Assembly (NCBI RefSeq): GCF_021028995.1
Contig: NZ_JAJJZG010000008.1
Location: forward strand, 62,001-126,000
From: Halobacterium sp. KA-4
Lineage (GTDB): Archaea; Halobacteriota; Halobacteria; Halobacteriales; Halobacteriaceae
Length of the DNA stretch: 64,000 bases
Direction of reading: 5' to 3'
This document shows, one piece after another, positions 969 to 30,751 of this stretch. Below the pieces are notes generated by a model. It was not told the origin of the DNA. It ran no database searches and saw only the letters and a list, made by a program, of their open reading frames with translations. The stretch's first letter is position 1, and every line of letters starts with the position of its first letter. The translations under genes and the position numbers were made by a program.

Positions 969-1541
969 ATGGAGTTCGACCCCGACAGCACCGCGGTCGT
1001 CGTCGTGGACGTCCAGAACGGCTTCTGCCACCCCGAGGGGAGCCTGTACGCGCCCGCCAGCGAGGAAGTCGTCGACCCCGTCACCTCGCTCGTCTCCCGG
1101 GCGCGCGAGGCGGGCGCGAGCGTCGTCTACACGCGGGACGTCCACCCGCCCGAGCAGTTCGAGGGCAACCACTACTACGACGAGTTCGAGCGCTGGGGCG
1201 AGCACGTCGTCGAGGGGACATGGGACGCCCAGTTCCACGACCGCCTCGACGTGCGCAACGAGGACTACGTCGTGGAGAAACACACCTACGACGCGTTCTA
1301 CCAGACCGGCCTCGAAGGGCACCTCGACACCTACGGTATCGACGACGTGCTGGTCTGCGGGACGCTGGCGAACGTCTGCGTGCTCCACACCGCGGGGAGC
1401 GCGGGCCTGCGGGACTACCGGCCGGTGCTCGTCGAGGACGCCATCGGCTACATCGAAGAAGAGCACCGCGAGTACGCGCTCGACCACGCCGACTGGCTGT
1501 TCGGCGAAGTCCTCGACCGCGACGAGGTCGCGTTCCAGTAG
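969..1541 (+). CDS. Isochorismatase-fold cysteine hydrolase, nicotinamidase-like
   Basis: A 190-residue cytoplasmic hydrolase of the isochorismatase-like fold. The catalytic triad is visible as Asp14 (VVDVQNGF), Lys104 (VEKHTYDAF) and Cys137 (GTLANVCV). Asp57 and His59 in TRDVHP, with a further His at 68, look like the zinc site of nicotinamidases. The length is normal for the family. It probably deaminates nicotinamide to nicotinate in NAD salvage, but other cysteine hydrolases of this fold (isochorismatase, ureidoacrylate hydrolase) share these residues. No other NAD-salvage gene is adjacent. The neighbour on the right is convergent, with only a 9-base gap. Confidence 0.85.
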   Translation: MEFDPDSTAVVVVDVQNGFCHPEGSLYAPASEEVVDPVTSLVSRAREAGASVVYTRDVHPPEQFEGNHYYDEFERWGEHVVEGTWDAQFHDRLDVRNEDYVVEKHTYDAFYQTGLEGHLDTYGIDDVLVCGTLANVCVLHTAGSAGLRDYRPVLVEDAIGYIEEEHREYALDHADWLFGEVLDRDEVAFQ

Positions 1542-1550
1542 TCGGAGCCG

Positions 1551-1988
1551 TCAGTGGAGACTGCCGGACTCGGTGGGCGTCTTCCGAACGATGTAGAGCG
1601 CGCCGACGAGCACGGCGAGCAGGACGGCGAATCCGGCGGACGTCAGCAGCGCTTCCATCGCGGCGTGGTCATCGGGGTGGAAACTGATGACGCGACGCGT
1701 GACCGCGATGATGCCGGTGATGATGACGATGCGGACGACGCTCTCCTCGCGGGTGTACGCGACGACCGTCTGGTAGATTTCCACGATGATGAAGAGGAGG
1801 AGGACGGTGTCGATGAGCGCGATGACCTCGCTGGTCTGCGTGATGGCGCCCGTGCGGACCAACTGGAAGATGTTCAATCCGAGGTCGAAGACGCCGACAG
1901 CGAACAGCAAGACGAGCACGTACGCGGCGACGATTTCGACCGCCTGGATGAGTCGCTCGGTGATTCGTACGTGGTCGTCGACGTCCAT
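1551..1988 (-). CDS. PsiE-like membrane protein
   Basis: A 145-residue integral membrane protein with about four transmembrane segments and an Asp-rich cytoplasmic N-terminus. The pattern ERLIQAVEIVAAYVL near the N-terminus, later LIDTVLLLFIIVEIYQT, and a His/Asp pair in a loop (SFHPDDHAAM) resemble the phosphate-starvation-inducible PsiE family. The biochemical role of PsiE is not established even in bacteria. The gene is monocistronic in appearance, and the upstream region is shared with no divergent gene. No phosphate-regulation gene is visible nearby, so phosphate control is not supported by context. Confidence 0.75.
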   Translation of the reverse strand: MDVDDHVRITERLIQAVEIVAAYVLVLLFAVGVFDLGLNIFQLVRTGAITQTSEVIALIDTVLLLFIIVEIYQTVVAYTREESVVRIVIITGIIAVTRRVISFHPDDHAAMEALLTSAGFAVLLAVLVGALYIVRKTPTESGSLH

Positions 1989-2049
1989 GCACCGGAGTAC
2001 AGACGGGGCGCTATTAAGAGCGTGGGCGGGACGCGGTCCCAGGTGACCG

Positions 2050-2871
2050 CTACGTAATGTCGACCGAGACGCTATCTCCGACCGCGAGGTCGTGGCCGGG
2101 TGCGACGAGTTTGACGCCGAGCCGATCGGTGCCGAGCCACAGCGAAAGCCCGCGAATCGGCTCGCCGTTCGCCGTCACGGTGACGTCCCGCCACGCGACG
2201 GTGCGGCCGTCCGCGACGTCGCCGACGTGCGTCCCGAGGAACGAAACCGGGTCGTCGTCCGCGCTGCCGCGTCCGAAAACGCCGCCGCCCTCGTAGTGCG
2301 GGAAGCCGCCGTCGAGCACACGGCCGTCGTCGGTGGCGATACCCGCGAACCGCTTGCCCGGTTCAGGGTGTTCGGGCGCGTCGAGGAGCGCGTACGTCTC
2401 CCCGGTTTCTACGACCTCGCCAGTGCCGTCCCAGGGGACTGGCTCGACGTGCGCGTCGAGGTCGAGCGGGAGCGACCCGGACGCTCGCACGGCGTCGCCG
2501 TCGCGCTCGCGGAACCCGAGGTGGACGTGGTTGTCGACCCACGGCGCGAAGAAGCCCGAGCGCACCATCCGCCCGAGGTCGTCGCCGAGCGCGACGGCAT
2601 CGCCGGCTTCGACGGCGGGCGCGACGTGGAGGATGCGCGCGAGGTAGTCGCCCGTATCGACGACGATGAGGTGATCGTGGTCGGCGGCGTACGGCTTCGA
2701 CGGACAGCGGACGGTGCGGGTCTCCACGACTTCGCCCGCGACCGGACTGGGGGCGCGAGCGGTCCGGGGGTACAAGTCGACCGCACAGCCGGCGTCGTGG
2801 GCGGGGTACGGCGAGTTGTAGAGGGACGCTCGCGGGTAGCGCGCGAGCACGTCGCCGTCCAGCGTGACCAT
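2050..2871 (-). CDS. Conserved haloarchaeal protein with M23/lysostaphin-like domain
   Basis: A 273-residue protein without signal peptide or membrane segment. The N-terminal half has the layout of an M23/biotinyl-lipoyl-like beta fold: an HDAGCAVDLYP segment near residue 25, then PVAGEVVETRTV, DHLIVVDTGDYLARILHV and VDNHVHLGFRERDG. The His-x-His (NHVHLGF) resembles the second metal-binding motif of M23 peptidases. Haloarchaea lack murein, so a peptidoglycan role is unlikely. It could be a carrier-like or repurposed domain. The C-terminal part (from about residue 165) resembles nothing I recognise. It is divergent from the lipoate ligase-like gene, with about 50 bases between the two starts, which suggests shared control. 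Confidence 0.7.
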   Translation of the reverse strand: MVTLDGDVLARYPRASLYNSPYPAHDAGCAVDLYPRTARAPSPVAGEVVETRTVRCPSKPYAADHDHLIVVDTGDYLARILHVAPAVEAGDAVALGDDLGRMVRSGFFAPWVDNHVHLGFRERDGDAVRASGSLPLDLDAHVEPVPWDGTGEVVETGETYALLDAPEHPEPGKRFAGIATDDGRVLDGGFPHYEGGGVFGRGSADDDPVSFLGTHVGDVADGRTVAWRDVTVTANGEPIRGLSLWLGTDRLGVKLVAPGHDLAVGDSVSVDIT

Positions 2872-20163: not shown

Positions 20164-21101
20164 ATGGAGCGCCGGCCGAGCGCGGCGACTGCGGCAGTCA
20201 CGGGCACGAGTATCCACGCCGCGAGCGCCGCCAGCAGCACGCCCTGACTCAGCCCCGCGCCGGTGAGGACGCCGGCGATGCCGCCCGCGGTCGTGGAGAC
20301 GGTGCGGAGCACGAGCACGCGGAAGAGGTCCGCGGGGTTCGCGAGCACCGCCACGGAGACCGCCCACTGCGGGAGGTCGAAAGTGGCGATAGCGCCGAGC
20401 GCGACGAGGTCGTGGACGAGCACGAACCACACCCACGCCGCGAGCGCGCCGCCCAGCGCCCGCGTCTTCTCACTGGCGAGCGCGGACGCGAGGACGCCGA
20501 CGCCGAGGAACGCCAGCGCCGCGGCGACCGCGATCAGCGCCACCCACGCGTACGCGCCGGCGACGCCCACGCCAGCGTATCGGACGAGGAGTGCGCCGCC
20601 GACCGCGAACCCGAGCAGCATGCCGCCGCCGACCGCGGCTGCGCGGCCCGCGTACTTCCCGACGACCACCGAGAGATTCGACAGCGGGAGCGCAAGCAGC
20701 ATCTCGAGGCTGCCGGACTCGTCGGCGCCGACGATGGCGTCGTAGCCCGCGGCGAGCGCGACCAGCGGGACGACGTAGACGCCGACCTGCGCGAAGCTCG
20801 CGAGCACGGCGCCGACGCGCGTCGGCCCGACCTCGGAGCCGCCGAGAACGACCAGTGCCAGCGAGAACAGCGCGAACACGACCGCCGCGCCGACCGCCCA
20901 GCGGCGCCGGACCGCGAGGCGGTACTCGCGGGCGGCGACCTCGACAGTGCCGCGGACGGTGCTGCGGATGCTGTCGCGCTCCACGAGGTCTGTCGCCGTT
21001 GCGCCGTCGGCTGCGAACTCTGGGGGTTCGTCGACGACCGCAGTTGCGCCGCCGTCGGTCGCAGGCTGCTCGTCCACGGCGTCGGTGCGGTCTGCCGTCA
21101 C
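20160..21101 (-). CDS. nosY: NosY-type ABC permease
   Basis: A 313-residue membrane protein with about six transmembrane helices after an acidic cytoplasmic N-terminus of about 60 residues. The segment GADESGSLEMLLALPLSN is typical of ABC-2 type permeases of the NosY family. With NosF and NosD it forms the maturation apparatus that helps supply sulfur to the CuZ cluster of nitrous-oxide reductase. It is the last gene of the nos operon, and its start overlaps the stop of nosF by four bases. Confidence 0.9.
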   Translation of the reverse strand: MTADRTDAVDEQPATDGGATAVVDEPPEFAADGATATDLVERDSIRSTVRGTVEVAAREYRLAVRRRWAVGAAVVFALFSLALVVLGGSEVGPTRVGAVLASFAQVGVYVVPLVALAAGYDAIVGADESGSLEMLLALPLSNLSVVVGKYAGRAAAVGGGMLLGFAVGGALLVRYAGVGVAGAYAWVALIAVAAALAFLGVGVLASALASEKTRALGGALAAWVWFVLVHDLVALGAIATFDLPQWAVSVAVLANPADLFRVLVLRTVSTTAGGIAGVLTGAGLSQGVLLAALAAWILVPVTAAVAALGRRSI

Positions 21102-22057
21102 GCCCGCTCACCCCCGGTTTCGACTGCAACGTCGCCGCCCGCGGCGACCTCCTCACGAAACACCGCGTCGAGACCGGGCTCGGTGACCTCGACAGATTCG
21201 ACGTCGGCGGCCTCGCGAAGCGCGTCGAGCACGTCGAAGACGCCGTCGCGCTCGCAGGTCAAGTGGACGCGGGCGCCGTCGGTTTCTACAGTCGTCACTG
21301 CGGCGTGGTCGAGCAGGTCGGCGGCGGCCGCGTCGGGGTCGCTCACGACGGTCGCGTCCACCGAGACGGTGTCTGCGGCCGCGCGTCGGAGGTCCTCGAC
21401 GCTCCCCGAGACCGAGACGTCGCCATCTTCGAGGACGGCGACGCGGTCGCAGAGGCGCTTGATTTCCGGGAGGACGTGGGAGGTGACGAGGACCGTCACG
21501 TCCGTCTCGGTGGCGAGCGCGTCCACGATAGCGTGGAAGTCCGCGACGCCCGCCGGGTCGAGGCCGGCGGTCGGCTCGTCCAGGAGGAGGACGTCCGGGT
21601 CGCCGACGAGCGCGGTCGCGAGCCCGAGCCGACGGTTCATGCCGTTCGAGTAGCCGCCGACGCGCCGGTCCGCGGCGTCCGCGAGGCCGACCGTGCGGAG
21701 CACGCGCTCGACACGGCGGTCACGCGCGTCGGCAGGGACACTTCGGACACGAGCGTGGAACGAGAGGACTTCGCGGCCCGTCAGCGACGGCGGGAAGCCG
21801 GCGTGTTCGGGGAGGTAGCCGACGCGCTCGCGGAGCGCGGTGCCCGCCGACGGCGCGAGGCCCGCGACCGTGACGCTGCCCGCGTCCGGCGTCTCGTGGC
21901 CGACGAGGAGTTTGAACAGCGTGGTCTTGCCGGCGCCGTTGCGGCCGACGAGCCCGAGCGTCTCCCCGCGGTCGACGGCGAGGCTGGCGCCGTCGAGCGC
22001 GGTGACTGTGCCGTAGGACTTCTGCACGTCGCGGATGTCGATGGTTGGGTCAGGCAT
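21098..22057 (-). CDS. nosF: NosF-type ABC ATPase
   Basis: A 319-residue ATP-binding subunit. Walker A is GLVGRNGAGKTTLF near residue 37, the signature is VGGYSNGMNRRLGLA, and Walker B is DVLLLDEPTAGLDP. The signature departs slightly from LSGGQ, as is frequent in NosF and related CcmA-like ATPases. The C-terminal 90 residues form an accessory domain. It energises the NosFY maturation transporter. Its start overlaps nosD by eight bases. Confidence 0.92.
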   Translation of the reverse strand: MPDPTIDIRDVQKSYGTVTALDGASLAVDRGETLGLVGRNGAGKTTLFKLLVGHETPDAGSVTVAGLAPSAGTALRERVGYLPEHAGFPPSLTGREVLSFHARVRSVPADARDRRVERVLRTVGLADAADRRVGGYSNGMNRRLGLATALVGDPDVLLLDEPTAGLDPAGVADFHAIVDALATETDVTVLVTSHVLPEIKRLCDRVAVLEDGDVSVSGSVEDLRRAAADTVSVDATVVSDPDAAAADLLDHAAVTTVETDGARVHLTCERDGVFDVLDALREAADVESVEVTEPGLDAVFREEVAAGGDVAVETGGERA

Positions 22058-23441
22058 AGTATCGCCTCCAGTCGTCGTGAGCGGGAGTCGCGAGCGGATG
22101 GTGGTCGACGACGCCGGGCGCGTCCACGAGCGGCACCGACCGACCCGCCAGCCGGACCGCGTCGAACGCCGGGCTGGACGCGAACACGCGGGCCCCGGGA
22201 TGTTGGCGCGCGAGGTTCTCGACGGTGCCGTCGGGCTGGAACCGGACCTCGCTGACGCCGTCGTGGTCGACGTCGACGGGGCTGGCGTCGCTCCAGTAGT
22301 TGCCGCGGTCGCTGGCGTTCCACGCGACCTGCTCGCCGACCACGGCGTACATCGCGTCCGCGTTGTCGACGAACGAGTTCCCGGCCGCGCGGACGTCGAC
22401 GCTGCCAGCGGTGAGGTGGACGCCGACGTCGTTGGCGAGCACGAGATTGTCCCGGAACGCGTTGTCCAGAGAGTTGTAGACGAAAATCCCGTTGTCGTTA
22501 CCGACGAGGTCGTTGCCGGCGATGGTGGAGTGGTCGACCTCTTTCACGAGGACGCCGTGGCCGCTCGTGCCGGTGTTGTTGACGGCGACGTTGTCGACGA
22601 TTTCGAGGTCGTCCGAAACCATCAGCGCGTAGCCGGCGTCGTTGTCGAAGGCGGTGTTGTTCGCGAGCCGGTTCCTGTCGGAGTACATGTAGTGGACGCC
22701 GTAGCGGAGGTCCCACAGCGTGTTGTTCGACGCGACCACGCCCGAGCTCCACGAGAAGTAGACGCCGTCGCGGACGTCCGTGATGCGGTTGTCCGCGATT
22801 TCGGCGTCGTTGGCGCGCCAGAGTTGGATGCCGTTCCCGCGGTCGGAGCGACGCTCGACGCTCGTGCGGCCGACGATGGTGGTGTTCGCGATGCGAGCGT
22901 CCGGCACGCCGTTCACCCAGACGCCGAACGTGGTGTTCGTGATGCGCGTGTCCGCGACGGTCGCGCCGGGTGCGTCCACCCAGACGGCGGCGTCGTTGTC
23001 CTCGGTGCTGTAGCCGGCGTTGCGCACCCAGACGTCCCGAATCGTCACGCTGCTGGCGTTGACGGTGACGACGTCGCCCTCGGCTTCACCGGAGACGACG
23101 GACTCGGAGGGCGACTTCCCGGCGATGGTGACGTTCGGCGTGTCGACGCTGACGGGGCCGGCGACGTGGCCGTGGACCGCGACAGTATCGCCGGGTTCAG
23201 CCGCGTCGACGGCCGCGGCGAGGGAGTCGTAGCGTTCGTCGCCGATGGCCGCGTAGCCATCGCCGCGCTCGCCCACCGACGAGAGCGCGAAGTCGTACTC
23301 CGCGGGGACCGGCGCGTCGAACGCGACCTCGGGGCTGCCGGCCGCGTCGTCGCTGGGGGCGGCGACGACGGCGCCGACGCTCACCACGAGCACGGCGACG
23401 ACCGCGACGGCGAACCCACGCTCGATGCGGCGGTCAGTCAC
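22050..23441 (-). CDS. nosD: NosD copper-enzyme maturation protein
   Basis: A 463-residue exported protein with an N-terminal hydrophobic signal (GFAVAVVAVLVVSVGAVVA) and many parallel beta-helix repeats of the NosD/CASH type, visible as recurring N-x-I/N-x-T/A-D-N-x-I patterns (for example ANDAEIADNRITDVRDGVYF, VASNNTLWDLRYGVHYMYSD). The YGVHYMYSDRN segment is highly typical of NosD. It cooperates with NosFY in assembly of the CuZ site outside the membrane. There is no clear C-terminal membrane anchor. It lies seven bases after the NosB-like gene. Confidence 0.93.
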   Translation of the reverse strand: MTDRRIERGFAVAVVAVLVVSVGAVVAAPSDDAAGSPEVAFDAPVPAEYDFALSSVGERGDGYAAIGDERYDSLAAAVDAAEPGDTVAVHGHVAGPVSVDTPNVTIAGKSPSESVVSGEAEGDVVTVNASSVTIRDVWVRNAGYSTEDNDAAVWVDAPGATVADTRITNTTFGVWVNGVPDARIANTTIVGRTSVERRSDRGNGIQLWRANDAEIADNRITDVRDGVYFSWSSGVVASNNTLWDLRYGVHYMYSDRNRLANNTAFDNDAGYALMVSDDLEIVDNVAVNNTGTSGHGVLVKEVDHSTIAGNDLVGNDNGIFVYNSLDNAFRDNLVLANDVGVHLTAGSVDVRAAGNSFVDNADAMYAVVGEQVAWNASDRGNYWSDASPVDVDHDGVSEVRFQPDGTVENLARQHPGARVFASSPAFDAVRLAGRSVPLVDAPGVVDHHPLATPAHDDWRRYYA

Positions 23442-24290: not shown

Positions 24291-26282
24291 TCAGTCGTCG
24301 CGCGGTTCGACGAGCATCCGCGAGCGCATCTCCAGGTGGAGCGCGCTGCAGAAGTACGTGCAGTAGATCCAGTAGACGCCGGGCTCGTCGGCCGTGAACG
24401 TCGCCTCGCGGGTGTCCTGGGGCGCGATGGCGAGGTGGACGTCGTGCTCGGGGATGGCGACCCCGTGGATGACGTCGCGCACGCCCTCGATGTTCGTCAC
24501 CGTGAGCGTCACCTCGTCGCCCTCCTTGACGGTGAAGTCCTTGAGGCCGTACTCCGAGCGCATCGAGGACGTCTTCACGTCGACGGAGCGCTCGCCCGTG
24601 CGCTCGACCCGGGAGTTCTCCTTCGTGACGAACTCCTTCTCGCCCTCGTAGTCGGCTTTGTCCCACGTCGTCGCGGGGTCGAGTTTGTCCTTGTGCGCGA
24701 ACACGCAGTCGTGGGGCTCGGGGTAGGCGGGGTGGTCGGCGACCAGTTCCATCTCCTTCTCGCCCTGGCCGATGTGGATGAGCTGGTCGTTGTCCGGGTG
24801 GATGGGGCCGACCGGCAGGAAGCGGTCCTTCGAGAGCTTGTTCAGGCTCACCAGCCACTCGCCGTCGGGGTCCATCGTCATCGCCTCGACGGCCTGAATG
24901 TGGCCGGGGTTGTAGTGGACGTCCTGCTTCTCGATGACGGGGTCCGAGGAGCCCTCCTCGGCCTCCACCGCCGCCTGGATGTCCCACTTGACGGCCTGGG
25001 AGTCGATAAACAGCGACGTGTACGCGTGGCCGTTCCCGTCGAAGGTCGTGTGCAGCGGGCCGAGGCCGACGTTCGGTCGGCCGGCGACGACGTCCTCGGG
25101 GTCGCTGGAGGAGTCCAGCGCGTCGATGTCGAGGATGGTGACCGTCGGGGAGAGTTTTCCCGCGATGAACGCGTAGTCGCCGTTCGGCCCGATTTCCACG
25201 CAGTGCGGGCTCTTCGGCGTCGGGATGTACCGCACGATGGGGCTGTCCCCCTGGTTCAGCGAGCTGTCCTGCGTGCCGTCGACGACGGGCACGCCGTTGA
25301 CTTCCTCGTACTCGCCCGCCTGCACGGCCTCCTCGATGGCGGGCACGTCGAATGCCTTCACGTAGTCGCGGTCGTCGCGGGTCATCTCCGTGACCGTGAC
25401 GCCGCCCTCGTCGTTGTACGCCGACGAGATGGCCCAGCGGCCGTCCTTGTCGGTGTCGACGATGTCGAGGTTGCCGTCGACTTTCACCTGCCACTGGGTC
25501 TCCATCGACTCGGGGTCAATGGCGGAGAACAGCGACACGTACTCGTCGGGGTTGTCGAGGTCGCGGCCGTCGTTGGGCAGCGGTGTGCGGAACTCGCCGT
25601 TCCCGAATATGTACTCCGTGTCCGGGCTCTGCACGGAACACCCGTGGATGGCCTGCATGTTCGGGACGTCCGTGATGGCGTCCGTCTCGAAGTACTTCAG
25701 ATTCACCCGGGCGATGCGGCCGTTGGCCTTGTCGTTCACCCAGAGGTACTCGCCGTCGTAGTCGCCGTCCGTCTCCGACAGCACGGGGTGGTGGTTGTCA
25801 CCCCACGTGTAGTCGCCGGCGCCCTCCAGCATCTCCGCGGTCTGGTCGTCGTAGCCGTAGCCGCGGCCGGCCTCCGTGTTGAACACGGGAATGCGCATCA
25901 ATTCGCGCATCGACGGGATGCCGATGATGCGGATTTCGCCGGACTGGCCGCCCGACCAGAAGCCGTAGTACTCGTCGTGCTCGCCGGGCGCGACCTTGTG
26001 GTCGGGTGTCGACCCGTCCGAGCTGGTCGTGGTGTTCGAACTGCCGCCGCCGATGTTGCCCGAACAGCCCGCCAGCCCCGCCATCGCGCCGGTCGCGACG
26101 CCGGCCTTCACGAAGTCACGCCGGGAGAGTTCGAGGCCGGCCAGTTCCAGCGTCGTCGAGTCCTCTTCGGGGGTCGGTTCGTCGACCTCCGCGAGCAGGT
26201 CGTCGAGTTGGTTCTCGTGGCGCTCGACGACCGCCTCGGGGTTGAGCGTCTCGTCTGCGTCGTCGGGAGTGTGTTGGGACAT
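24291..26282 (-). CDS. nosZ: Nitrous-oxide reductase, Tat-exported
   Basis: A 663-residue multicopper enzyme that reduces N2O to N2 outside the membrane, the last step of denitrification. The N-terminus is an acidic extension of about 50 residues, then a twin-arginine signal (LSRRDFVKAG) and a lipobox-like AGLAGCSG. The beta-propeller holds the CuZ ligand histidines (for example GDNHHPVLSETDG and HGCSVQSPD). The C-terminal cupredoxin domain has the CuA motif YCTYFCSALHLEM. The start ATG at 26282 is two bases past the halocyanin stop, so the genes are co-transcribed. The operon contains no visible nosL. Confidence 0.96.
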   Translation of the reverse strand: MSQHTPDDADETLNPEAVVERHENQLDDLLAEVDEPTPEEDSTTLELAGLELSRRDFVKAGVATGAMAGLAGCSGNIGGGSSNTTTSSDGSTPDHKVAPGEHDEYYGFWSGGQSGEIRIIGIPSMRELMRIPVFNTEAGRGYGYDDQTAEMLEGAGDYTWGDNHHPVLSETDGDYDGEYLWVNDKANGRIARVNLKYFETDAITDVPNMQAIHGCSVQSPDTEYIFGNGEFRTPLPNDGRDLDNPDEYVSLFSAIDPESMETQWQVKVDGNLDIVDTDKDGRWAISSAYNDEGGVTVTEMTRDDRDYVKAFDVPAIEEAVQAGEYEEVNGVPVVDGTQDSSLNQGDSPIVRYIPTPKSPHCVEIGPNGDYAFIAGKLSPTVTILDIDALDSSSDPEDVVAGRPNVGLGPLHTTFDGNGHAYTSLFIDSQAVKWDIQAAVEAEEGSSDPVIEKQDVHYNPGHIQAVEAMTMDPDGEWLVSLNKLSKDRFLPVGPIHPDNDQLIHIGQGEKEMELVADHPAYPEPHDCVFAHKDKLDPATTWDKADYEGEKEFVTKENSRVERTGERSVDVKTSSMRSEYGLKDFTVKEGDEVTLTVTNIEGVRDVIHGVAIPEHDVHLAIAPQDTREATFTADEPGVYWIYCTYFCSALHLEMRSRMLVEPRDD

Positions 26283-26283
26283 C

Positions 26284-26787
26284 TTAGACAACCCGGACGT
26301 AGCCGACCATCCCGCTCATCTCGTGCGGGATGCAGTAGTACTCGTAGGTGCCGGTCGTCTCGAACGTGTGTTCGTAGGTCTCGCCCTGCGGCACGTTGCC
26401 CTCCTGGCCGCTGTTGTAGCCGTCGATGGCGGCCTGCTCGGAGTCGAAGTCGCCGGACGCGAAGTACTCCGCGCCGTCCGGGATGTTGTCCTCGTAGGCC
26501 GTCACCGTGTGGCCGACCGCGCCGGTCGTCTCCCACGTCACCGTGGTGCCGGCCTCGACCTCGATGCGTTCGGGCTCGTAGACCAGTTCGTCGGTCATGT
26601 CGACGGTGCTCGTCTGTACCCACTCCTCGCCGGAGCCGCCGCTCTCGGTCTCGGTCGGCTCGGCCGTCGTCCCGCCACCGCCGCCACCACCGCCGCTGTC
26701 GCCACCGCCGGAACAGCCGGCGAGCGCTGCGACACCGACGACGCCAGTGCTTGCGAGGAACCGTCTGCGCGAGTAGTGCTCGTCCAT
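26284..26787 (-). CDS. Halocyanin (plastocyanin/azurin-type blue copper protein)
   Basis: A 167-residue exported type I copper protein. It carries a twin-arginine signal (YSRRRFLASTG), a lipobox (ALAGCSGGG) and a glycine-rich linker. The copper ligands are His in GAVGHTVTAY and the cluster YYCIPHEMSGMVG (Cys, His, Met). It is the first gene of the nos operon and is the likely electron donor to NosZ. The start at 26787 fits the Tat signal; the upstream region contains an inverted repeat at 26862-26875. Confidence 0.93.
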   Translation of the reverse strand: MDEHYSRRRFLASTGVVGVAALAGCSGGGDSGGGGGGGGTTAEPTETESGGSGEEWVQTSTVDMTDELVYEPERIEVEAGTTVTWETTGAVGHTVTAYEDNIPDGAEYFASGDFDSEQAAIDGYNSGQEGNVPQGETYEHTFETTGTYEYYCIPHEMSGMVGYVRVV

Positions 26788-26850
26788 GTTTGCCTCACGT
26801 CGTCGGTCAGGGGCACACACACGTAAACCGGAAACCACAGTACAAGGTCC

Positions 26851-26880
26851 CGGGAACGCAACCGAACACGTTCGGGAACG
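26851..26880 (-). promoter_or_regulatory. Dyad and direct repeats upstream of nos operon
   Basis: An inverted repeat CCGAAC-AC-GTTCGG spans 26862-26875 and is bracketed by two copies of CGGGAACG (26851-26858 and 26873-26880) that are 22 bases apart, about two helical turns. It lies 64-94 bases before the halocyanin start. It resembles the CGAAC/GTTCG inverted motif reported upstream of haloarchaeal denitrification genes controlled by NarO, but the spacer here is two bases, shorter than the one I recall. Operator function is inferred. Confidence 0.45.
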
Positions 26881-27006
26881 GGGTTACGGGCGGCGGCTCT
26901 GATATGGTTGGTAACAACCCACACAACGGCTGTGGCGGCCGGATTCTGGGGTCGCTGAGACTGACTGGACCGACGGAGCCAAACAGCGCGCGCCCCTACC
27001 ACGCAT

Positions 27007-28257
27007 ATGGACTTGCGGTTTCTCGGCGGCGCGCGCGAAGTCGGGCGCAGCGCGATTCTCGTCGACGACTCGCTGCTGCTCGACTACGGGATGAAGCCCG
27101 GGACGCCCCCGGGCTACCCCGAGGACGTCGACCCGGACGCGGTCGTCGTCAGCCACGGCCACCTCGACCACGCCGGCGCCGTCCCCGCACTCGTCGCCGG
27201 CACGCGCCGCCCACCGATTCACTGGACACCGCCCACACGCGACCTCACGCGGTTGCTCGCGCAGGACACGCTCAAACTACAGGGAGGCGGCGAGCGCGGC
27301 GGCCGCTACGACTGTCCGTTCACGCGCGCGGAAGTCGCCGCGCTCGGCGAGGTCTCGGAGACGCACGGCTACCGGGAGACGTTCGAGGCCGCCGGCTACG
27401 AAATCACGCTCTACGACGCCGGCCACATCCCCGGAAGCGCGCACGTGCTCGTGGACGACGGCGACACCCGCTTGCTGTACACGGCGGACTTCAACACGGA
27501 GGACCAACGCTTGCTCGCCGGCACGACCGCCCGGCCCGACGCCGACGTCGTGATTACCGAAGCCACGTACGCGGACGTGACCCGCAATGACCGCGCGAGC
27601 ATCGAGGACGCGTTCGCCACCTCCGTAGCGGAGACGATTCGCGGCGGCGGCACCGCCGTCGTCCCCGCGTTCGCGGTCGGGCGCACGCAGGAACTGTTCA
27701 TGGTGTGTGCCGCCCACGACATCCCCTGTTACGTCGACGGGATGGGCGTCGCCGTCACCGAGCGGTTCAAACAGACCAGCGAGTTCCTCCGGGACGCCGA
27801 CGCGTTCCAAGAAGCGCGTGGCCACGCGCGCCTCCTTGACAAATCCACGCGGAACGGCCAGCGAAAGCGCATCGCCGACAAACCGACAGCCATCGTGACG
27901 ACGGCGGGGATGCTCTCGGGCGGCCCCGCGATGACGTACGTCCCGGAAATTTCGGGGAATCCCCAGCACGAAGTCGCGCTCACGGGGTACCAGGTCGAGG
28001 GGACGCCCGGCCGCGAACTCCTGGACACGGGCAGCGCAGAAATCGACGGCCGCCATCTCCGGGTCGCCGCGCGCGTCAACAGTTACGACTTCTCCGCGCA
28101 CGCCGACCGCGAGGGCCTTCGCGGGTTCCTCGAGGACTACCGCGGCAGCGAGCTGCTCGTCAACCACGGCGACCGCTGCGAGTGGTTCGCCGACCAGTTG
28201 CGTGCGGACGGCTTCGACGCGAGCGCGCCCGACCGCGGCCCGACGATTACGGTGTAG
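27007..28257 (+). CDS. Beta-CASP metallo-beta-lactamase ribonuclease
   Basis: A 416-residue MBL-fold nuclease. Motif 2 is VVSHGHLDHAGAVP (HxHxDH), with later motif segments DAGHIPGSAHV (His), TADFNTEDQ (Asp), and the beta-CASP motifs TEATYA, GTAVVPAFAVGRTQE and the C-terminal NSYDFSAHADREGL and VNHGD. It lacks N-terminal KH domains, so it is not the CPSF1 orthologue but a shorter aRNase of the beta-CASP group. It would cleave or trim RNA in the cytoplasm. Monocistronic; divergent from the nos operon. Confidence 0.92.
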   Translation: MDLRFLGGAREVGRSAILVDDSLLLDYGMKPGTPPGYPEDVDPDAVVVSHGHLDHAGAVPALVAGTRRPPIHWTPPTRDLTRLLAQDTLKLQGGGERGGRYDCPFTRAEVAALGEVSETHGYRETFEAAGYEITLYDAGHIPGSAHVLVDDGDTRLLYTADFNTEDQRLLAGTTARPDADVVITEATYADVTRNDRASIEDAFATSVAETIRGGGTAVVPAFAVGRTQELFMVCAAHDIPCYVDGMGVAVTERFKQTSEFLRDADAFQEARGHARLLDKSTRNGQRKRIADKPTAIVTTAGMLSGGPAMTYVPEISGNPQHEVALTGYQVEGTPGRELLDTGSAEIDGRHLRVAARVNSYDFSAHADREGLRGFLEDYRGSELLVNHGDRCEWFADQLRADGFDASAPDRGPTITV

Positions 28258-28615: not shown

Positions 28616-30376
28616 TCAGTCGTCCGCGGAGATGGGTTCGCCCTCGCCGTTCGTCGGCGCGGGGCTGGCGTCCATGTCGTCGTCGTCCGCGTACGGGTAC
28701 CACGTCATCTTCGTGTTGTGCATGTACGGGTCGTCGTAGTCCGTCTCCTCGGGGTCCGCGAGCTCCTGGAGCGCGTCCTCCTCCTGGCGCTGGATGAAGT
28801 CACGGAACGTCTCGTCGTTCTGGCGCTCGTCCTCGTAGGTCGCCAGCAGGTTCTGGATGTACCCCGGCACCTCGTCGGCGGGCACGCGCATCTCCACCCA
28901 CTCCGCGAAGTGGGGGTTCTCGCCGAGCCCGCCGCCCAGGCCGACGTCGAGCGCTTCGACGGGTTCGCCGTCCTTGCGGGTCTTCATCCCGCGGAGGCTG
29001 ATGTCCGCAATCTGGGGCTGCGCACAGGACGCCGTGCAGCCCGAGAGGTGGATGTGGAAGTCCGTCACGCCGTCGGGGACGTCGACGTTCTCCTTGAGCC
29101 AGCGCGCGTACCGCACCTGGCGGTTCTTCGTCTCCACGATGGACAGCGAGCAGAACTCGGTTCCCGTACACGCGATGGAGCCCCGCATGAACGGGTGGGG
29201 GTCCGGCGAGTAATCTTCTAAGAGGTCCGCCGCGAGGAAGTCGTCGAGGTCCTCCTCGGGGATGTCCGTCACGATGACGTTCTGGCGCTGCGTGAGCCGG
29301 ACCTCGCCGCTGCCGTACTCGTCGGCGAGGTCGGCGAGTTCGTAGACGTCCTCGACGCCCTGCCGGCCGACCAGCACGTTCAGGCCGACGTAGTAGTTGC
29401 CGTCGGGCTGCTCGTGGACGCCGACGTGGTCGCCGTGCTCGTGGCCGCCCGCGTTGTACGTGTACTGGTCGCGGAGGTCGTCGCCCGCGGATTCGAGGTC
29501 CCAGTCGGTGTAGTCCTCCTGGAGGACGCGCCGAACCTTGTCGGCGCCCCACTCGTCGACGAGGAATTTGATGCGTGCGTTGTAGCGGTTGTCGCGGTCG
29601 CCGTGATCGTTGAACAGTTCGGTCACGGCCGCCGCGATGTCCGTGGCCTTCTCCTCGGGCACCCAGATGTCGACGTCGCGAGCGAGGCGCGGCTCTTTGC
29701 GGGAGAGCCCACCGCCGACGCGGACGTTGAAGCCGAGTTCGCCGTGCTTCTCGGCGGGCTCGAAGGCGAGGTCGTTGATGTCGCCCTGGCCGCAGCCCTG
29801 GTCGCAGCCCGTGACGGAGACCTTCCACTTTCGCGGGAGGTTCGAGTAGGCGTCGTTGCCCTTGAACGTCTCGTGGAGCTCCTCGGCGACCGGCCACGCG
29901 TCGATGTGCTCGTGGGTGTCCTTCCCGGCGACCGGGCAGCCGACGATGTTGCGCCACGAGTCACCACACGCCTGCTGGGTCGTGAGGTCGTTCTCCTCAA
30001 GCTTCTCGAAGATGTCCGGCACGTCTTCGAGTTTGATCCAGTGCAGCTGGATGGACTGGCGGGTCGTCCAGTCACAGTACGCCGCGCCGAACTCCGGATT
30101 GTCGACCGGGCCGCGGGCGTACTCGTCGGCGACCTCCGCGACCGTGCGGAGCTGGCCGGGCTCAAGGACGCCGTTGGGCGTCCCGATGCGCATCATGAAG
30201 TAGCTCTCCTGGCCCTTCCGCTGGTGGTACAGTCCCCACCACTTGAAGCGCTCGAACCAGGCGTCCTCCTCCTCCTCGGGGATGGCGTCCCACCCCTCCT
30301 CGGCGAACCGGAAGAGGTGCTCCCGGATTTCGTTACCGTAGACCTCGTCTTTCCATCGCTCCACGTCCGTTGGCAT
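28616..30376 (-). CDS. Ferredoxin-type nitrite/sulfite reductase (siroheme and 4Fe-4S)
   Basis: A 586-residue duplicated siroheme reductase. The C-terminal half has the 4Fe-4S/siroheme motif CTGTEFC followed by CTASCAQ. The N-terminal half has TRQSIQLHW, where siroheme-contacting basic residues sit, and GCDQGCGQGD, corresponding to the degenerate first-half cluster site. It performs six-electron reduction of nitrite to ammonia or sulfite to sulfide in assimilation. Discrimination between the two substrates is not possible by eye; no nitrate reductase or sulfate-activation gene is adjacent. Start at 30376 gives MPTDVERWKDEVYGNE, a typical N-terminus. Confidence 0.9.
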   Translation of the reverse strand: MPTDVERWKDEVYGNEIREHLFRFAEEGWDAIPEEEEDAWFERFKWWGLYHQRKGQESYFMMRIGTPNGVLEPGQLRTVAEVADEYARGPVDNPEFGAAYCDWTTRQSIQLHWIKLEDVPDIFEKLEENDLTTQQACGDSWRNIVGCPVAGKDTHEHIDAWPVAEELHETFKGNDAYSNLPRKWKVSVTGCDQGCGQGDINDLAFEPAEKHGELGFNVRVGGGLSRKEPRLARDVDIWVPEEKATDIAAAVTELFNDHGDRDNRYNARIKFLVDEWGADKVRRVLQEDYTDWDLESAGDDLRDQYTYNAGGHEHGDHVGVHEQPDGNYYVGLNVLVGRQGVEDVYELADLADEYGSGEVRLTQRQNVIVTDIPEEDLDDFLAADLLEDYSPDPHPFMRGSIACTGTEFCSLSIVETKNRQVRYARWLKENVDVPDGVTDFHIHLSGCTASCAQPQIADISLRGMKTRKDGEPVEALDVGLGGGLGENPHFAEWVEMRVPADEVPGYIQNLLATYEDERQNDETFRDFIQRQEEDALQELADPEETDYDDPYMHNTKMTWYPYADDDDMDASPAPTNGEGEPISADD

Positions 30377-30466: not shown

Positions 30467-30751
30467 TCGCCGAACACCTTCGACCAGCTCGAAGCCGTCG
30501 TCGGTCACCTTCCCGACCGGCAGCCACGGTGCCGTTCCGGACTCCCCGCAGTTCAGGCAGTGCCCGTGCGGCCGCGCCTCCACGCGCCGCCCGTCCGCGC
30601 CCACGTCGACGAACGCTTCGACGACGAGCCACGCGAGCGAGCACGAACAGAAGCTCTCCGCGACCGGCCACACCTCGCTGGTCCCCACCGCACGCTCGTC
30701 GTTCACGCTCACCCACGCGGCGTCGTCGAGCAGCCGCAGTCGCGTCGCCAT
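30464..30751 (-). CDS. Small zinc-finger-like haloarchaeal protein
   Basis: A 95-residue protein starting MATRLRLLDDAAWVSVNDERAVG. It has a CSC pair and a HCLNCGESG motif, so one zinc ribbon is plausible, and a basic region (DGRRVEARPHGHC). I do not recognise a family. The start at 30751 is preferred because the upstream extension is rich in Arg and Pro and looks non-coding. It lies about 90 bases upstream of the siroheme reductase on the same strand, but an AT-rich dyad separates them, so they need not share a transcript. Confidence 0.6.
   Translation of the reverse strand: MATRLRLLDDAAWVSVNDERAVGTSEVWPVAESFCSCSLAWLVVEAFVDVGADGRRVEARPHGHCLNCGESGTAPWLPVGKVTDDGFELVEGVRR

Follow-up and report, generated by a model that had tools for sequence, protein, structure and literature searches.

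We analysed a 64,000-nucleotide (nt) stretch of Halobacterium sp. KA-4 DNA (contig NZ_JAJJZG010000008.1, positions 62,001 to 126,000; hereafter the window), in which a short inverted repeat, or dyad, lies in the intergenic region between the operon for nitrous-oxide reduction (nos) and a divergent gene. The original prediction, made from the letters of the window, had placed at this point an operator-like dyad flanked by direct repeats, upstream of nos. Its letters and coordinates are correct when checked against the sequence, and the assignment to nos is borne out by genes for a blue copper protein, NosZ, NosD and an ABC transporter ATPase, all on the minus strand. The features of the locus are as follows.

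26862–26875, no strand assigned: dyad CCGAACACGTTCGG (core CGAAC-AC-GTTCG, 26863–26874), the proposed operator of the nos promoter, with the geometry of the nos/nor motif of Haloferax mediterranei.
26873–26880, plus strand: right-hand CGGGAACG repeat, overlapping the dyad by 3 bases and probably a chance match; GTTCC stands directly before the core in only 2 of 29 aligned nos-promoter rows (the window genome and one near relative), at 0.1–0.4 bits per column.
26851–26856, minus strand: conserved nos block TTCCCG (CGGGAA on the plus strand, the main part of the left-hand CGGGAACG repeat), 6 nt from the dyad core on its nos side.
26822–26829, minus strand: TATA-like element GGTTTACG of the nos promoter, 33 nt from the dyad core; T 78%, T 72% and A 72% at alignment columns 48, 49 and 50 (18 rows).
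26284–26787, minus strand: first gene of the operon, encoding a plastocyanin/halocyanin-type blue copper protein (PF00127, E=3.6e-19).
24291–26291, minus strand: NosZ, a twin-arginine translocation (TAT)-dependent nitrous-oxide reductase (TIGR04244, 753 bits, cut-off 625).
22050–23441, minus strand: NosD (PF05048, E=5.6e-47).
21098–22057, minus strand: ABC transporter ATPase, NosF-like by position (PF00005, E=8e-33).
27007–28257, plus strand: beta-CASP metallo-hydrolase gene, divergent from nos, with the dyad 131 bp before it in the shared intergenic region.

The dyad core lies 75 nt upstream of the start codon of the blue-copper gene (26787), and the exact dyad occurs only once in the window. 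Copies of CGGGAACG at 26851–26858 and 26873–26880 do bracket the dyad 22 bases apart, as predicted, but they have to be regarded separately: nos promoters conserve the left arm and not the right. The window has 222 positions with exact 8-mer direct repeats 9–30 bp apart, which makes a flanking repeat unremarkable taken alone, and the pair of repeats was rejected as an element in its own right. Neither a terminator nor a sigma-70-type promoter was found at 26700–27100; promoters of the latter type do not apply to archaea.

The pattern CCGAACNNGTTCGG has six copies in the 3.34 Mb genome, every one of them upstream of an open reading frame (ORF), and one is the nos site. Four others belong to the nirK cluster, where they span no more than 5.2 kb of contig C51 (positions 8212, 9517, 12641 and 13354 of locus L003). 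Three of these precede a gene of 178 amino acids (aa) that has no Pfam match, nirK itself (TIGR02376, 389 bits) and a 440-aa COX1-like gene (29.3 bits, under the Pfam cut-off of 34.8), and the fourth is situated between a gene for an HTH_10/BAT-family regulator and a divergent DUF2249 gene. The sixth copy starts 52 bp before L004:7496-8566, a gene whose product has four DUF2249 stretches. Additionally, a Nor-like gene (C51:164088-165434; 174.6 bits to PF00115, a general family model) is preceded, 101 nt before its first ATG, by CGAACATCTTCG, a core with one mismatch. The check suggested in the original prediction, a search of other denitrification promoters of this genome for the same motif, is thus answered by exact copies at nos, nirK and the regulator/DUF2249 pair and by a one-mismatch copy at the Nor-like gene, and this recurrence supports its reading of the dyad as an operator-like site of denitrification genes.

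From base composition, 0.0075 copies of CCGAACNNGTTCGG would be expected in the window and 0.39 in the genome. This estimate is too low, because CGAAC-N(0–12)-GTTCG has 392 matches in the genome over 13 spacers, or about 30 per spacer; we infer about three chance copies of CCGAACNNGTTCGG per genome, so that the six observed are only mildly in excess. The non-random feature of the six copies is their placement, not their number.

Several other occurrences were recorded in the same genome. A second copper nitrite reductase gene (G000:C8:20779-21693, in locus L015), whose product is 56% identical to the C51 NirK, has no core with one mismatch or fewer just upstream. Two one-mismatch cores 26 bp apart (L003:2531 and L003:2557) are found about 90–120 nt upstream of a 382-aa ORF (1293–2441, minus strand) with a weak copper-nitrite-reductase-type match. 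Within the window, CCGAACACCTTCGA at 30470–30483 is a core with one mismatch, and about 95 nt downstream of it a nitrite/sulfite reductase-type gene (28616–30376, minus strand) begins; as one of 13 cores in the window with no more than one mismatch, it may be due to chance. The genome, a draft of 55 contigs, encodes NirK, a Nor-like COX1-family protein and NosZ, with narG represented only by an 18.8-bit match, far under a cut-off that may not suit archaeal enzymes; this gene set looks like that of a partial denitrifier beginning at nitrite.

Conservation at nos was assessed in 145 genomes of the order, including that of the window. Some NosZ match was present in 113 of them and a near-full-length match (E≤5.6e-250) in 32, all of which entered a comparison of upstream DNA. 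In the 1000 bp preceding the NosZ match, a core with a two-base spacer and at most one mismatch was present at 29 of the 32 nos loci and an exact core at 10, against 0–13 near and 0–6 exact matches for the other spacers from 0 to 12, the best of which was spacer 4 (13 and 6). Some of the 29 near-match loci (for example G013, G021 and G053; family f3, genus g9) have the core in a different setting and may be chance matches. Counts of the site per genome (135 of 145 genomes with at least one copy, range 0–13) were not used as evidence.

Alignment of the nos promoters on the dyad, after seven loci had been excluded by eye (G110, G018, G052, G013, G021, G053 and G139), gave 29 rows (25 genomes), of which 18 (16 genomes) were kept after redundancy was removed at 70% identity; the upstream stretch of G131 is short, as it meets a contig end. 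G018 and perhaps G110 resemble diverged versions of the common arrangement, and the other five excluded loci do not. In the 18 nonredundant promoters a TTCCCG block starts 6 nt after the dyad, followed by a looser G at column 31 and A at column 33 and by the T, T and A of columns 48–50. TT at +6 was present in 16 of the 18, a count that did not exceed 8 in 20000 random shifts, and was distributed over the families as 7/7, 1/1, 2/3 and 6/7 rows. The best six-column block downstream of the dyad carried 5.7 bits, against at most 2.1 in 2000 shifts. A weak block upstream, near −14, was equalled in 3 of 2000 shifts and is not pressed. The distance from the dyad to the TATA-like box on the nos side is nearly constant in promoters of four families. 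We also observed an inverted repeat, TTCC(C/T)...GGAA, after the dyad in several regulator promoters (among loci L135, L159, L167, L171 and L188) and in the nos promoter of G116; it is possibly related to the nos TTCCCG block.

The regulator gene of the nirK cluster (L003:12659-13309, minus strand) encodes a 217-aa protein that exceeds the curated cut-offs of two families, PF04967 (61.5 bits, cut-off 23.1) and PF15915 (33.1 bits, cut-off 25.8), and its own promoter in the window genome contains an exact dyad. Homologues at E≤1e-40 are present in 118 of the 145 genomes, its own included. Two sets of regulator loci were compared: 57 chosen loci, made up of the window genome's own and 56 relatives picked from 117 (E≤1e-40) by score and NosZ presence, and 80 named haloarchaeal loci, the best 80 of 277, which have some species in common with the first set and are not fully independent of it. 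Within 200 bp before the regulator start, the spacer-2 core was exact in 42 of the 57 loci and present with at most one mismatch in 48, against 0–2 exact and 0–11 near matches for other spacers; among the 80 named loci the corresponding numbers were 56 and 69, against 0–6 and 0–10 for the other spacers from 0 to 12. Control stretches taken 1, 2 and 3 kb upstream of the regulator contained an exact spacer-2 core in 1, 2 and 0 of 72 cases. In total, the 942 kb surrounding the 80 regulator genes hold 176 exact spacer-2 cores, against 0–39 for each of the other spacers from 0 to 10.

The arrangement of these sites is also distinctive. Measured from the first base of the core to the regulator start codon, the distances cluster at 13, 49–59 and 95–97 nt in many genera, and two looser dyads (CGAAYNNNTTCG), 34–39 or 44–47 bp apart, lie within 130 nt of the start in 25 of the 80 loci, against 0 of 216 control stretches. 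Such a dyad pattern at the regulator promoter is what would be expected of a self-regulating factor. Paired dyads upstream of L003:13309 and in the named loci (L118–L197) often have the inner dyad within about 21 nt of the regulator start codon. The flanks of the 80 loci contain NirK, NosZ or Nor in 26 cases and DUF2249 in 24. A fold model of the regulator had moderate scores (mean predicted local distance difference test score (pLDDT) 79.6, predicted template modelling score (pTM) 0.57), and its best match in the PDB was 5m86 (query template modelling (TM) score 0.45, E=3.3e-4), which is no clear relative. A profile search of PDB sequences with the regulator returned one match (E=0.7) and no convincing solved relative for its predicted N-terminal part.

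A dyad with a four-base spacer was considered as the real motif and rejected. CGAAC-N4-GTTCG has 32 copies in the genome, scattered across many contigs, and is found exactly in none of the 57 chosen regulator promoters and in 1 of the 80 named ones; at nos, its 6 exact and 13 near occurrences among 32 upstream regions are weaker than those of spacer 2 (10 and 29).

Two-base spacing has a published precedent. The available text on Haloferax mediterranei describes CGAAYATDKTYG as the motif of its denitrification promoters (PMC10062603; PMC11218638), and the nos and nor promoters (nosp and norp) carry CGAACATGTTCG, that is, half-sites two bases apart; point changes in the motif significantly reduced the activity of both promoters (PMC10062603). 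RNA sequencing in the same organism found 25 motif-bearing promoter regions with differentially expressed genes, and its nirK-nor cluster has repeated motifs and includes a bacterioopsin-activator gene, DUF2249 genes and halocyanins (PMC11218638). That 2024 paper, in its available parts, terms the regulator that binds the motif undisclosed and names two bacterioopsin-activator-like genes as candidates. A literature search for newer work on this regulator returned none that reported regulator binding in the parts available. The site in the window has the two-base spacer of the CGAAYATDKTYG class, as CGAACACGTTCG at 26863–26874, and differs from the consensus by one centre base on either strand. 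The original prediction had regarded the two-base spacer as a variant with a different dimer geometry. That view has to be given up, as the H. mediterranei motif was published with two bases between its half-sites, and spacer 2 alone is strongly enriched upstream of the candidate regulator gene. The dyad looks like a conserved member of a known haloarchaeal operator class, in which the two-base gap is the usual form.

We favour as likely a model in which the dyad would serve the nos promoter as its upstream operator and would be bound by the 217-aa HTH_10/BAT regulator of the nirK cluster, which would also control its own gene. The model draws on the dyad sequence and its repeated occurrence, on how it is conserved and spaced, and on an association between the dyad and the regulator gene. 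The palindrome CGAAC-N2-GTTCG would be the site for a dimeric transcription activator that would turn on denitrification genes in this organism as oxygen falls. The putative binder, with the same dyad before its own start, would probably be self-regulated. TTCCCG (26851–26856), placed between the dyad and the TATA-like box at nearly fixed spacing, may be contacted by this protein or by another factor.

A number of observations weigh against this model. The regulator (118 of 145 genomes) is far commoner than near-full-length NosZ (32) and is thus not specific to nos, and some of the best matches may be paralogues; genome G002 has an exact nos dyad and no regulator homologue at E≤1e-40, and the window genome has 14 further HTH_10 matches. 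As judged by eye, 5 of the 32 nos loci (G013, G021, G053, G139 and G052) are without the dyad in its common setting, and 36 of the 80 named regulator loci have none of seven denitrification-cluster query genes in their flanks. In H. mediterranei, according to the available portion of PMC10062603, the decrease after mutation of the nirK promoter fell short of significance, as it did in one of the four nos mutants, and changing the nar motif caused no lowering. The genome of that species has the motif at 83 promoter regions.

Other readings of the site deserve comparison with this one. The dyad could be bound by another HTH_10 protein or by a regulator from outside that family, the nirK-cluster regulator gene being only a further target of that binder; the 15 HTH_10 matches in the genome and the nos dyad of G002 speak for such a binder, which we nevertheless regard as unlikely, since a dyad before the regulator gene in many genera, at clustered distances, is the usual mark of self-regulation. 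The binder proposed in the original prediction was NarO, acting at an operator with changed half-site spacing. NarO, the regulon of which was reportedly described in Haloferax volcanii by Hattori et al. in 2016, is said to be a bacterioopsin-activator-like regulator of anaerobic respiration, and its cysteine motif is CXnCXCX7C. The CGAAC and GTTCG half-sites do resemble the motif that the original prediction gave for NarO-controlled genes. However, none of the 15 HTH_10 matches of the draft genome contains CXnCXCX7C (n 1–40), some of the frames being fragments or cut at the end of a locus, and a two-base spacer is the common form and not a changed one. The available text of PMC10062603 bears on both sides: it credits to Hattori et al. 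2016 a similar motif in promoters of several haloarchaeal genera, and it reports neither a NarO gene nor a homologue in H. mediterranei, an organism in which the motif is functional. Control by NarO therefore appears rather improbable. Because the spacer-2 dyad is enriched upstream of the regulator gene (56 of 80 loci), our results instead suggest the nirK-cluster regulator as the binder.

It is very improbable that the site serves the divergent metallo-hydrolase gene instead of nos. The two genes share the intergenic region in which the dyad lies, yet the near-constant distance from dyad to TATA-like box in four families is kept on the nos side, and the other genome copies precede denitrification-type genes. 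A chance palindrome in G+C-rich DNA, which the roughly 30 CGAAC..GTTCG matches per spacer in the genome might bring to mind, is extremely improbable in view of the spacer-specific conservation in both nos and regulator promoters.

Taking the operator, the regulator and the TTCCCG block together, we lean, with some reserve, towards a broader interpretation drawn from sequence comparison: a haloarchaeal denitrification operator that would be read by a widespread, self-controlling HTH_10/BAT regulator without the NarO cysteine motif, often via two stacked dyads, and to which nos would add TTCCCG, six nt beyond the dyad, as a second element through which nos could be tuned apart from nirK and nor. 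Were this so, the separate tuning of nos could be the work of a second factor or of the same regulator in a larger complex. NosZ is the enzyme that removes nitrous oxide, a strong greenhouse gas, and the additional block at nos is a place to seek separate control of nitrous-oxide reduction. Equally, the footprint of dyads before one regulator gene in many genera offers one protein family as a specific and testable answer to the question of what binds the motif.

The system proposed here can be set beside three that are already known. Like members of the HTH_10/BAT family (bacterioopsin activator-like), the candidate regulator matches both PF04967 and PF15915; it differs in that its only other match is to HVO_0513_N, below cut-off, with no PAS or GAF domain reported. 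With the NarO regulon of H. volcanii it shares a bacterioopsin-activator-like regulator and a similar motif, attributed to that work in the available text of PMC10062603, whereas the candidate is without the N-terminal cysteine motif. The third is the CGAAYATDKTYG motif of H. mediterranei, which is likewise accompanied by a bacterioopsin-activator gene and DUF2249 genes and is situated 69 nt upstream of the nos ATG, compared with a core that ends 75 nt before the start codon in the window. The centre of the dyad is AC here (GT on the other strand) and AT there, and the available text of the two motif papers (PMC10062603; PMC11218638) makes no mention of the TTCCCG block. The operator class and its two-base geometry were already known from that system; what this analysis adds is a concrete proposal for the regulator and a putative second element in the nos promoter.
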